Positions 19,287 through 35,435 of a DNA stretch of 53,704 nt are shown one piece after another. The notes beneath the pieces were generated by a model that ran no database searches, was not told the origin of the DNA, and saw only the letters and a program-made list of their open reading frames with translations. Origin of the DNA: Deltaproteobacteria bacterium (GTDB lineage: Bacteria; Desulfobacterota; RBG-13-43-22). Within the stretch, counting starts at the first letter, position 1. Each line of letters starts with the position of its first letter. The stretch spans positions 1-53,704 of the forward strand of contig JACRBX010000155.1 in NCBI GenBank assembly GCA_016219225.1, written 5' to 3'. The position numbers were made by a program, and so were the translations under genes.

Positions 19287-19411
19287 GTAGGGTGGGTGAA
19301 GTGAAACGGAACCCACCACATAATAAATGCCTTGTACCCCTTGTGGGTTATGAATTGATTTTGTCATTTTTTATTGGGTTGGTGGGTTGCACTTCGTTTC
19401 ACCCACCCTAC
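19287..19411. repeat. REP-A inverted pair (GTAGGGTGGGT family)
   Basis: Two copies of a 31-32 bp repeat face each other: GTAGGGTGGGTGAAG...ACCCACCA at 19287-19318 and the inverse at 19381-19411. Each copy forms a GGTGGGT/ACCCACC stem. The family occurs at least eight times between 19287 and 21491, around and inside a RAYT gene. Confidence 0.85.
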
Positions 19412-19524
19412 GGGAACTGCTGGCTAAGACAAAAAATTTTTTGGCCACTCCCGTGCACTGTGAAGAATGCGGAGAATTTGAATTTTATTTCTTTTGATCC
19501 GATAAGCGGTGAGGTAAGGTGTCC

Positions 19525-19854
19525 TTACGATAACCAGTTCGCGAGTTCCCTTTTCGATAACTCAATGCGTTTCGCACCCCATCGGTCGCGCACTTGTGCA
19601 TGCGGAATAAAAACGGTATTGGGGTTGTCCGCTTCCTTTATGGCGGTTTTGACCTGTCGCCGGAACCATCTATCATGTTCTTCAGTTTCCCCTTTTGACA
19701 GTTCGACTTTAAAGGGTAACCCCTTTTCAATAACCACCTGGTTTATAAAGAGCCGTATTGCCTCACTTATTGAGAGTCCCAGGCCTTGTAAAAGATTCTG
19801 GGCCTTGGCTTTTACTGCGGAATCTATTTTTGAGCGAACCATCGTCTCCGGCAT
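19525..19854 (-). CDS. RelB/DinJ-family antitoxin, apparently orphan
   Basis: 109 residues. The N-terminal ribbon-helix-helix (RSKIDSAVKAKAQNLLQGLG) and ISEAIRLFINQVV match RelB/DinJ antitoxins, followed by a toxin-binding tail. No RelE/YafQ toxin is seen downstream: after the stop there are about 110 bp without a frame, then a REP-A repeat. A strong promoter (TTGACC, 17 bases, TATAAT) lies at 19894-19922. It may be a solitary antitoxin left after loss of the toxin. Confidence 0.8.
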   Translation of the reverse strand: MPETMVRSKIDSAVKAKAQNLLQGLGLSISEAIRLFINQVVIEKGLPFKVELSKGETEEHDRWFRRQVKTAIKEADNPNTVFIPHAQVRDRWGAKRIELSKRELANWLS

Positions 19855-19893
19855 ATCACGCCCCCTTATTAACTCTTTGTTTCATTCGTTGAG

Positions 19894-19922
19894 ATTATAA
19901 AATGGAAAAAAATTCGGGTCAA
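19894..19922 (-). promoter_or_regulatory. Sigma-70 promoter for the relB-type gene
   Basis: On the minus strand TTGACC (19922-19917) and a consensus TATAAT (19899-19894) are separated by exactly 17 bases, about 40 bp before the antitoxin start. Confidence 0.6.
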
Positions 19923-20051
19923 GTGGGATTTTCGTCTTATCGAAACTAAATAAAAAAGAAAAAAGATCAAATAAACCAGATAGACCAGATGGGGTAAGCC
20001 GCTTCTGATCAAAATTAAAAAAACTTGACAGACGTTTCTGGTTGGAAGCGT

Positions 20052-20083
20052 GTAGCGTGGGTGGAACGCAGTGCAACCCACCA
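20052..20083. repeat. REP-A copy
   Basis: A single GTAGCGTGGGTGGAA...ACCCACCA copy of the REP-A family in an otherwise AT-rich spacer. Confidence 0.75.
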
Positions 20084-20404
20084 ATAAAATAAACAGGTAC
20101 AGTTATTCTTTTAAATCAAGCAAAGATCAAAAATAGCCTCCAATGGGGTTAAACTATGAAGTGAATCGAAATCCCAATTCATCCCCAACCAAATATTTGT
20201 GCAAATGGCACATGCTTTTGTGCAATATTCATTCTTCCTTCCGGCTTCATCACACCTAACTGCATAAAATAAAAATATAATTTAATTTATTTTCCCATAG
20301 CATAGTTTTTGCATTAAAAAAATTATTTTTCATTTTCACGACGGTCATTTTTACCAAATGTGACATTGTTGTACTAACCCTTGCTTCTCCCGATAGGAGG
20401 TTTT
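20084..20404. other. AT-rich spacer, no gene seen
   Basis: No coding frame or palindrome of note. The last part carries TAGGAGG (20394-20400), the ribosome site of the truncated gene at 20405. Confidence 0.4.
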
Positions 20405-20477
20405 ATGAAAGCAAAAACACATCTTTTTTTATTGTCGTTTTGGTTTGTTGGGCAACGGTAGCGATGGCAGCCCTGTA
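20405..20477 (+). pseudogene. Truncated exported-protein gene (signal peptide only)
   Basis: An ATG with a TAGGAGG site opens a frame MKAKTHLFL that, after a one-base shift near a T7 run, continues as VVLVCWATVAMAA, a plausible Sec signal peptide ending in an AMA cleavage site. A stop codon and then a REP-A repeat follow at once. This looks like the 5' end of a gene whose body was lost where REP copies inserted. Confidence 0.5.
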
Positions 20478-20482
20478 GCCCT

Positions 20483-20685
20483 GTAGGGTGGGTGAAGTGC
20501 TAACGGAACCCACCGATTTGTGGGATTGTTTTATCCACATCGATTCGGCCATCGGAAATTGGTGGGTTTCGATCTTCTCAACCCAATTCCCGGGCTATGG
20601 GTGGGGTGCGATATGTTTTCAATAAATGGTGGGTTCCGCTTCTCTGCTGATATCGGTGGGTTTCGCTTCGCTGCACCCACCCTAC
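20483..20685. repeat. REP-A cluster upstream of RAYT gene
   Basis: A forward copy at 20483-20515, degenerate copies around 20560-20640, and an inverted copy at 20655-20685 ending in CCACCCTAC just before the RAYT start. Confidence 0.8.
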
Positions 20686-20696
20686 GATGAGGCGTG

Positions 20697-21413
20697 ATGG
20701 GACAATATCGACGAAATTATGTTCATGGTGGGACTTTTTTCTTTACGGTGGTGACTTATCTGCGCCAACCAATTTTAAATGAAAGGACCATCTCTCTTTT
20801 ACAAGAGGGATTTAAATCATGTATTTCGAGAAAGATTTTTTCTGTTGAAGCGATGGTAATCCTTCCGGATCATCTTCATTGCATTTGGCAACTACCGCTG
20901 GATGACAATGATTATTCCTCTCGATGGAAATTCATCAAGGCCTTCTTTACCAAAGGATATTTTCTATTAACGGGTGAAAATGGTATTGGTGGGTTCCATT
21001 TCATTCCACCCACCCTACGGGATTTAACAAAATGTAGATCGGGTCGAGCATTACCGCAGCCCATCGATAATTTTGATGCATCATGTAGGGTGGGTGAAGC
21101 ATGTAGGGTGGGTGGAGCGATAGCGCAACCCACCATTCAAAAACCCACCAACACCAAACCCACCGCCTCCATGCAAAAAAAGGGGGAAAAAGGAATCTGG
21201 CAACGGCGGTTTTGGGAGCACACGATCCGGGATGAAAGGGATTATCGAAATCATTGCGATTATATCCATTATAATCCGGTGAAGCATGGATTGGTCAAAT
21301 ATCCCCGGGATTGGCCGCATTCCAGCTTTCATGAATTTGTTGAAAAAGGTCTTTATCCCGAATCTTGGAGTGGATCGGTGAATGCTTTTCCAGATGAGGT
21401 CGGGGGAGAATGA
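20697..21413 (+). CDS. REP-associated tyrosine transposase (RAYT) expanded by REP repeats
   Basis: About 238 residues of the Y1/IS200-like transposase family that mobilises REP sequences. The HUH-type motif LPDHLHCIW and the catalytic tyrosine region DYIHYNPVKHGLV are present, as is the conserved KGIWQRRFWEHTIRDE. The usual RAYT length is about 180 residues; here residues about 98-158 are extra and are encoded by REP-A repeats (20988-21020 and 21085-21135) plus a third repeat-like stretch between them. The frame stays open throughout. The start is ATG 20697, with GTG 20694 as alternative. Confidence 0.88.
   Translation: MGQYRRNYVHGGTFFFTVVTYLRQPILNERTISLLQEGFKSCISRKIFSVEAMVILPDHLHCIWQLPLDDNDYSSRWKFIKAFFTKGYFLLTGENGIGGFHFIPPTLRDLTKCRSGRALPQPIDNFDASCRVGEACRVGGAIAQPTIQKPTNTKPTASMQKKGEKGIWQRRFWEHTIRDERDYRNHCDYIHYNPVKHGLVKYPRDWPHSSFHEFVEKGLYPESWSGSVNAFPDEVGGE
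20988..21135. repeat. REP-A copies inside the RAYT coding sequence
   Basis: An inverted copy GGTGGGTTCCATTTC...CCACCCTACGG (20988-21020), a related GTAGATCGGGTCGAGC stretch near 21031, a partial GTAGGGTGGGTGAAG (21085) and a full copy (21103-21135) are read in frame as protein. Confidence 0.85.
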
Positions 21414-21460
21414 TGGATGTGCTCCCCCGCTTTTTATTGATGGGTTCTATGACAACTGTT

Positions 21461-21491
21461 GGTGGGTTGCGCTTCGCTGCACCCACCCTAC
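21461..21491. repeat. REP-A copy at the broken end of an ATPase fragment
   Basis: An inverted copy GGTGGGTTGCGCTTCG...CCACCCTAC lying exactly where recognisable ATPase sequence begins. Confidence 0.8.
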
Positions 21492-27114: not shown

Positions 27115-27142
27115 GTAAGGAAGTGGAACAGGCATTTTAAGA

Positions 27143-27241
27143 GTCAGGCAGGATGCCTGACCTATTAAAAAAGAATGGACTTTTGCACGAGGCTCTAAGG
27201 TTTAATTAATCTCAGAAAATAGGTCAGGCATCCTGCCTGAC
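27143..27241. repeat. REP-B unit, left of second RAYT
   Basis: A unit of about 99 bp with a palindrome at each end: GTCAGGCA/TGCCTGAC with 3-base loops at 27143-27161 and 27223-27241. The unit is repeated in the same orientation at 27713-27812 with only a few differences, so two direct copies flank the RAYT gene. Confidence 0.85.
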
Positions 27242-27250
27242 AAACGCTTT

Positions 27251-27709
27251 ATGAATATTTCCCGATTAAATTTAAGTGGATATCCGTCTTTTATAACAAC
27301 CAAAACGATGAACAATTATCCTTTTTTCTCGAATAATGCAAATGCTGAATGTTTGGTTTCAGGTCTGCTTTTTGGCCGGAGGAACAACTGGCTTGATCTT
27401 GTTGCCTTTGTAATTATGCCTGACCATCTTCATTTGATTATTATTCCAAAAGAGAAAAATGTTTCCCAATGTTTGCACAGTATTAAGAGCTTCTCAAGCA
27501 AAGAGATCAACAAAAATAGCCAGCACAAAGGTTCAGTATGGCAATCCAGTTTTAGGGATTTAACGTTATGGTCAGAAGAAGTAGTCATCGAAAAGATAAA
27601 TTATATTCATAATAATCCGGTTAGAAAAGAAATGGTTTCTGATCCGGGGAATTATCGATATTCATCGGCGAATACAAGATATGAGAAGGAATTGTTTAGA
27701 TCATTTTAA
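27251..27709 (+). CDS. REP-associated tyrosine transposase (RAYT), short type
   Basis: 152 residues of the Y1 transposase fold. The HUH motif is in MPDHLHLIII and the catalytic tyrosine in INYIHNNPVRKEMV; the conserved VWQSSFRDLTLWSEE corresponds to the WQ...FWE region. The length is normal for this subgroup and the frame is intact, so it may be active. It is flanked by direct copies of a palindrome pair that is probably its substrate. It is clearly different from the RAYT at 20697. No Shine-Dalgarno site is visible. Confidence 0.85.
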   Translation: MNISRLNLSGYPSFITTKTMNNYPFFSNNANAECLVSGLLFGRRNNWLDLVAFVIMPDHLHLIIIPKEKNVSQCLHSIKSFSSKEINKNSQHKGSVWQSSFRDLTLWSEEVVIEKINYIHNNPVRKEMVSDPGNYRYSSANTRYEKELFRSF

Positions 27710-27712
27710 GAA

Positions 27713-27812
27713 GTCAGGCAAGATGCCTGACCTATTTAAAAAAGAATAGACTTTTGCACGAGGCTCTAAGATTTAATTAATCTCAGAAAATAGGTCAGGC
27801 AAGATGCCTGAC
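27713..27812. repeat. REP-B unit, right of second RAYT
   Basis: A direct repeat of 27143-27241, again with GTCAGGCA/TGCCTGAC palindromes at both ends (27713-27731 and 27794-27812). A further single palindrome lies at 28050-28068, just before mtnA. Confidence 0.85.
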
Positions 27813-27882
27813 CTATTATGTGGGGTGAATTAATCTCAGAAAACCGATTATGAGATTTGAATTGATCCAAGAAAACCGATTG

Positions 27883-28017
27883 TGAGGCGTTCGTAAAAAG
27901 TCCAAAAGCGCCGATTTACGTCATTCCCGTGAAAACGGGAATCCAGTGTTTTTAATTAGTTACATATAGCCTGGATTCCCGCCTTCGCGGGAATGACGAG
28001 TTTTTACGAGACCATCA
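27883..28017. mobile_element. MITE-like element with possible target duplication
   Basis: The left end is TGAGGCGTTCGTAAAAA and the right end, inverted, TTTTTACGAGACCATCA, enclosing two facing CGTCATTCCCG palindromes (27919-27946 and 27971-27998). ATTGTGAG occurs at 27879-27886 and again at 28018-28025, compatible with a target-site duplication, although the left copy overlaps the end of the element. Confidence 0.65.
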
Positions 28018-28081
28018 ATTGTGAGATTTGAATTATTTTTAGAAAATAGGTCAGGCATCTTGCCTGACAACAGGACTTCTA

Positions 28082-35334: not shown

Positions 35335-35435
35335 CGTACTAAACCCTCATGCCCCTCTGGGGCACCACGAAATATGAAAATAGACCAGTCAAAGGCTTAT
35401 TTAGGCACGGGTCAGTCACAAAGCCTGACACAGGG

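Follow-up and report, generated by a model that had tools for sequence, protein, structure and literature searches.

A REPtron with a variant ATAG head between gatB and mtnA of a deltaproteobacterium, and a MITE as a probable second vehicle of its REP palindromes

As the short RAYT gene of this deltaproteobacterial contig (RAYT-B) lies between near-identical copies of a palindrome pair, the locus raises the question of whether the enclosed block moves as one element or whether the palindromes (REP-B) are themselves what is moved, and by which enzyme. Five exact 19-nt palindromes of the form GTCAGGCA-nnn-TGCCTGAC were confirmed at 27143-27161, 27223-27241, 27713-27731, 27794-27812 and 28050-28068, and the window (the whole stretch of 53,704 nucleotides analysed) held six REP-B matches with up to three mismatches, compared with 0.11 ± 0.31 in shuffles. 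The single-stranded hairpin folded at -8.5 kcal/mol (z = -5.4). With their heads included, the copies were P1 (27143-27166, minus strand, head at 27162-27166), P2 (27218-27241, plus strand, ATAG directly 5' of the hairpin), P3 (27713-27736, minus strand, ATAG head on that strand), P4 (27789-27817, a symmetric 'double foot' copy with a 13-bp stem and an ATAG head on each strand) and P5 (28045-28068, plus strand). RAYT-B (27251-27709, plus strand, 152 amino acids) begins 9 nt after P2, stops immediately before P3 and is enclosed by these two copies as an inverted pair with heads outwards. P5, noted from the start as a lone fifth palindrome before mtnA, was present 13 bp from the mtnA start (28082). 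The interval between P4 and P5 (27820-28046) also contains AT-rich tandem repeats of about 32 bp (GAATTAATCTCAGAAAACCGATTATGAGATT), with a core common to the spacers of the flanking units.

Those flanking units, described in the initial annotation as direct, nearly identical and 99-100 bp long, proved to be so (99 bp at 27143-27241 and 100 bp at 27713-27812, with identity in 93 of 100 columns), each with two mutually inverted palindromes whose (A)ATAG heads point inwards. The repeated sequence begins some 11 bp to the left of P1, at CATTTTAAGA (27132 and 27702; 103 of 112 columns identical), giving units U1 (27132-27241; RAYT-tail-like 11 bp, P1, spacer and P2) and U2 (27702-27812; RAYT-B tail, P3, spacer and P4). 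The right copy of this extra stretch consists of the final codons and stop of RAYT-B, so that a remnant resembling the RAYT tail lies in the left unit. When the sequence preceding P1 was aligned with the RAYT-B 3' end, a gapped match of about 31 bp resulted, equalled in score by 9 of 2000 shuffles. Probably, therefore, the left unit arose by duplication of the RAYT-B tail together with the right unit.

The RAYT-B protein matched Pfam Y1_Tnp (E=9.4e-10), and its predicted structure (pLDDT 91) found its best match among all PDB chains in 4er8, the E. coli RAYT-REP complex (E=5.1e-9, TM 0.74). Aligned with 4er8, it has the HUH motif and a single catalytic Tyr followed by Asn (N119 in E. coli); H59, H61, Y118 and N122 were invariant across 13 homologues, with W97 and Q98 also among the conserved residues. 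Fold and motifs predict RAYT-B to be a TnpA_REP/RAYT-type HUH-Tyr nuclease acting on single strands, from which we infer its catalysis. The codons of its HUH region at 27417-27425 read TGCCTGACC, the same as the REP-B 3' arm plus one base, which may be chance.

A further RAYT, RAYT-A (20694-21413), ends 5.8 kb upstream of the RAYT-B locus, and its palindromes (REP-A, GTAGGGTGGG...) are unrelated to REP-B, which bears out the claim of two RAYT/REP pairs within 8 kb. Eight REP-A heads lie within 19287-21482, and REP-A palindromes occur in frame between the HUH and Tyr motifs of RAYT-A, an arrangement described for subclass 2.4 RAYTs (PMC6006769). Another palindrome family (GGTCAGGCACAAAGCCTGAC) is present at 35410-35429, with an ACGG head at L275, L276 and L277 and copies at about eight places in the genome of the window (G000).

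The gatB and mtnA genes are adjacent in five genomes, and the gap between them measures 968 bp in G000, about 110 bp in G001, about 258 bp in the sister genome G002, about 230 bp in G003 and about 20 bp in G004. The RAYT block was absent from the orthologous site in G001 and G002, so that the search for an empty site succeeded with the G002 interval, where the exact borders are unreadable. That interval contains a decayed REP-B directly before mtnA and a copy of the unrelated MITE that in the window occupies 27888-28016 (CGTTCGTAAAAAGTCC...GTCATTCCCG...TTTTTACGAGACC, with GTCATTCCCG as hairpin arms); a near-identical copy of this MITE sits inside a REP-B MITE at L273. Comparison of these intervals shows the RAYT-B block to be an AT-rich insertion specific to its lineage. 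As G002 holds the MITE and the decayed REP-B but no RAYT block, P5 and the 27888-28016 MITE are most simply read as older than the block, and P5, an apparently ancestral copy, is placed outside the RAYT unit. Since RAYT-B has a GC content of 34%, against 50.5% for the window, its origin was likely horizontal.

The lineage-specific insertion would suit the proposal that palindrome pair, RAYT and palindrome pair form a mobile unit and transpose whole, as IS200/IS605 elements (IS608, ISDra2) do, and so would the direct, near-identical ends, with P1/P3 and P2/P4 on the same strand as is required of IS200/IS605 ends. The locus also shares with those elements the HUH-Y1 fold and hairpins that adjoin the gene and bear a 5' tetranucleotide. 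In contrast to them, it has many dispersed REPs, a RAYT as best fold match and Asn after Tyr as in TnpA_REP, and RAYT-B has one copy in its genome and none in four relatives; the exact ends of the block are unreadable at the site that lacks it. No target duplication was seen at the block, the literature holds that REPtrons do not seem to transpose whole (PMC6006769), and duplication accounts more readily than a pair of transposon ends for the RAYT-tail-like remnant in the left unit. Movement of the block as a whole, as first proposed, is therefore very improbable.

The preferred explanation, that RAYT-B moves the REP-B palindromes, was examined through their number. G000 contained about 41 REP-B palindromes (one locus being split over two contig ends), with no matches to a reversed-pattern control, and one RAYT-B gene, upholding the claim that a second RAYT is accompanied by a REP family unlike REP-A. 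Sixteen copies were found in G002, one each in G001 and G004, and at most two in each of the other genomes of the 99. RAYT-B itself was not found in G002 by protein or DNA search (best protein match 37%), an absence that is provisional, as G000 and G002 are draft assemblies with 5% and 8% contamination. No RAYT-B DNA match or remnant was detected in G001-G004, in a search run without a positive control, and the four further genomes of the class yielded no relative at E<=1e-22. REP-B was thus not confined to, or rare outside, genomes with RAYT-B. The expectation that REP-B count follows RAYT-B presence is refuted as a strict dependence by the 16 copies in G002, some of them solitary, while cognacy itself is not refuted; because G002 keeps these copies without the gene, the argument for cognacy draws on position and family rules, not on co-occurrence.

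Two RAYTs of G002 were considered as alternative actors and rejected. One near REP-B (C162) is flanked by its own palindromes, CGTTCCCACGC...GCGTGGGAACG, and not by REP-B, and the other (C48) has its nearest REP-B 2.5 kb away. A G002 RAYT between CGTTCCCACGC...GCGTGGGAACG palindromes (L089:1429-3030) is a REPtron of its own, and nothing corresponding to it aligned at the orthologous site of G000 (L259).

The G002 copies may instead reflect timing, if a RAYT-B or relative in the common ancestor gave rise to the REP-B family and later disappeared from G002, G001 and G004, leaving the present copy as a survivor. REP-B does occupy orthologous sites of G000 and G002 (before mtnA, and C162/C296), and in Pseudomonas and Stenotrophomonas numerous REPs lacking their RAYT 'appeared quite often', which was put down to RAYT loss or switching (PMC3686654). 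Against this stand the lack of any RAYT-B remnant in the relatives searched, including the gatB-mtnA site, and the AT-rich composition of the gene. We regard such survival as possible but doubtful, in a judgement that overlaps with the one on the preferred explanation, as the two differ in timing only. Elsewhere, C93 and C286 (L245/L228) share an intergenic region with REP-B at differing offsets, and at the solitary copy L252 the relatives conserve the left flank only. At L243:2600-2660 a truncated REP-B (TTAAAATAGGTCAGGCATCCTG) directly precedes a full TTAAAATAG-REP-B, a junction which suggests that the mobile unit begins at TTAAAATAG.

REP-B was often found facing, in inverted orientation, a partner that shares its head, either REP-C (GTCAGCCG-tcc-CGGCTGAC) or REP-D (GTCAGCCCCGCC), and inverted repeats of 24 bp (GAGNYTCTTKCAAAWGTCTWAATT) enclose these pairs. 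Eight elements complete with both ends were recovered (142-280 bp), five of them bordered by exact 4-bp target duplications (TTTA, CATT, CATG, TCAA and AATA), compared with none of 56 mismatched flank pairs; with terminal inverted repeats and target-site duplication, the carrier of REP-B is a MITE. Its terminal repeat was matched in 1 of 1100 random windows, and 24-nt sequences resembling it are attached on the minus strand to P1 (GAGCCTCGTGCAAAAGTCCATTCT, 27172-27195) and to P3 (GAGCCTCGTGCAAAAGTCTATTCT, 27743-27766). In G000, MITE parts came with 20 of the 41 REP-B copies, and in relatives with 10 of the 18, the rest being solitary (21 in G000). The remaining matches to the terminal repeat (G000, G002 and G001), inspected by eye and for a partner repeat only, showed no paired long element that could be an autonomous form.

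It could be argued from these proportions that REP-B is a property of the MITE, spread by the MITE transposase only, and that RAYT-B is a recent arrival inert on REP-B, a view to which the lineage-specific, AT-rich nature of RAYT-B and the presence of REP-B without it in G002 and G004 lend weight. We consider this unlikely, as half of the REP-B copies are solitary with no trace of the MITE, RAYT homologues elsewhere have their own flanking hairpins, and the nearest RAYTs in other phyla likewise have REPs headed ATAG. Every REP-C listed adjoins a REP-B and none of those listed is solitary; that the solitary copies are REP-B fits with a RAYT flanked by REP-B only.

Several described arrangements of repeats resemble the doublets. 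REPINs (Bertels and Rainey 2011, PMC3116915) share inverted REP doublets, non-autonomous spread and a RAYT in the genome, but here the doublets are heterotypic, with 24-bp terminal repeats and 4-bp duplications, and about half of the REP-B copies are singlets. In GTAG-15 of A. variabilis (PMC3733652) a REP dimer is likewise nested within a longer inverted-repeat element; here the outer element differs in having target duplications and paired terminal repeats of 24 bp, with ATAG as the tag. TIRtrons/TIRYTs (PMC3733652) similarly place a Y1 protein near terminal-repeat-like sequences, whereas REPs border the present RAYT and the terminal repeats are those of a separate MITE.

The nearest relatives of RAYT-B were found in Nitrospira (49% identity), a deltaproteobacterium (44%) and Zixibacteria (41-43%), while the best-scoring matches in 98 relatives, nearly all of them belonging to other families of its phylum, reached about 24-39%, apart from one match of 53% over 47 residues only, at a contig end. 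No donor emerged from the phages searched, with one weak match, or from the plasmids searched, with 31% identity at most. Matched hairpins, defined by a shared stem 7-mer, stood on both sides of 23 of 69 distant homologues but of none of 116 control positions displaced by 1.7 kb.

The REP-B head in G000 and its relatives is ATAG and not the canonical GT[A/G]G (the GTAG or GTGG foot), and the REPs of the two closest homologues, in other phyla (L138 and L139), have ATAG heads too; non-canonical REP heads are known from other subclasses (PMC6006769). RAYT-B W107 occupies the position of R104 in E. coli TnpA_REP, one of the residues for which interaction with the GTAG guide has been reported (PMC6006769, PMC8266576). 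This column holds Arg at most clear GTAG-head loci (L140, L141, L142, L143, L148, L203, L216 and L051), with Val at L043 as an exception, and in the ATAG-head proteins holds Trp (RAYT-B) or Asp (L138 and L139). As the three cases are close relatives, the association of an ATAG head with Arg loss is treated as a lead only. Tentatively, RAYT-B and its nearest relatives might form an ATAG-guided subfamily, in which a G to A change of the first guide base accompanied loss of the guide Arg (to W or D), with the REP additionally carried as MITE cargo in this genus and two unrelated transposition chemistries spreading one palindrome family; we hold this joint reading to be possible, with the balance somewhat against it.

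The locus is a REPtron, of a known kind with a variant head. REPtrons are RAYT/TnpA_REP genes with flanking REPs (Nunvar 2010, PMC2817692; PMC6006769), and it resembles them in an HUH-Y1 protein nearest to 4er8, inverted flanking REPs, one gene per REP family, dispersed genomic REPs and a patchy distribution, differing in the ATAG head, the Trp at R104 and the MITE parts with terminal repeats and target duplications at about half of its REPs. We consider it likely that RAYT-B moves ATAG-headed REP-B, that it arrived horizontally beside older REP-B, and that the MITE is a second vehicle. RAYT-B would bind the ATAG-headed hairpin in its single-stranded state, for example during replication, its predicted substrate being ATAG-GTCAGGCATCCTGCCTGAC single-stranded DNA; Tyr118 would cleave beside the hairpin, and rejoining elsewhere would spread short REP-B units. 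The gene would have entered the gatB-mtnA gap with flanking REP-B units, the left unit probably being a duplication of the RAYT-B 3' end and the right unit. The MITE, with REP-B opposite REP-C or REP-D, would spread REP-B too, through a separate transposase, presumably of the DDE type. Besides the G002 copies, two observations count against this explanation: matched hairpins accompany only 23 of the 69 homologues within the flanks searched, and the guide-contact position of R104 is Trp in RAYT-B, leaving recognition of ATAG putative.

REP number is often taken as a record of RAYT activity, and here it is a poor proxy, because half of the copies have another vehicle and the sister genome keeps 16 without the gene. 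The link of the REP family with a MITE is itself a variant, nested REP dimers having already been described (PMC3733652). The ATAG head together with loss of the guide Arg would offer a small, direct test of how RAYT nucleases choose their guide tetranucleotide.
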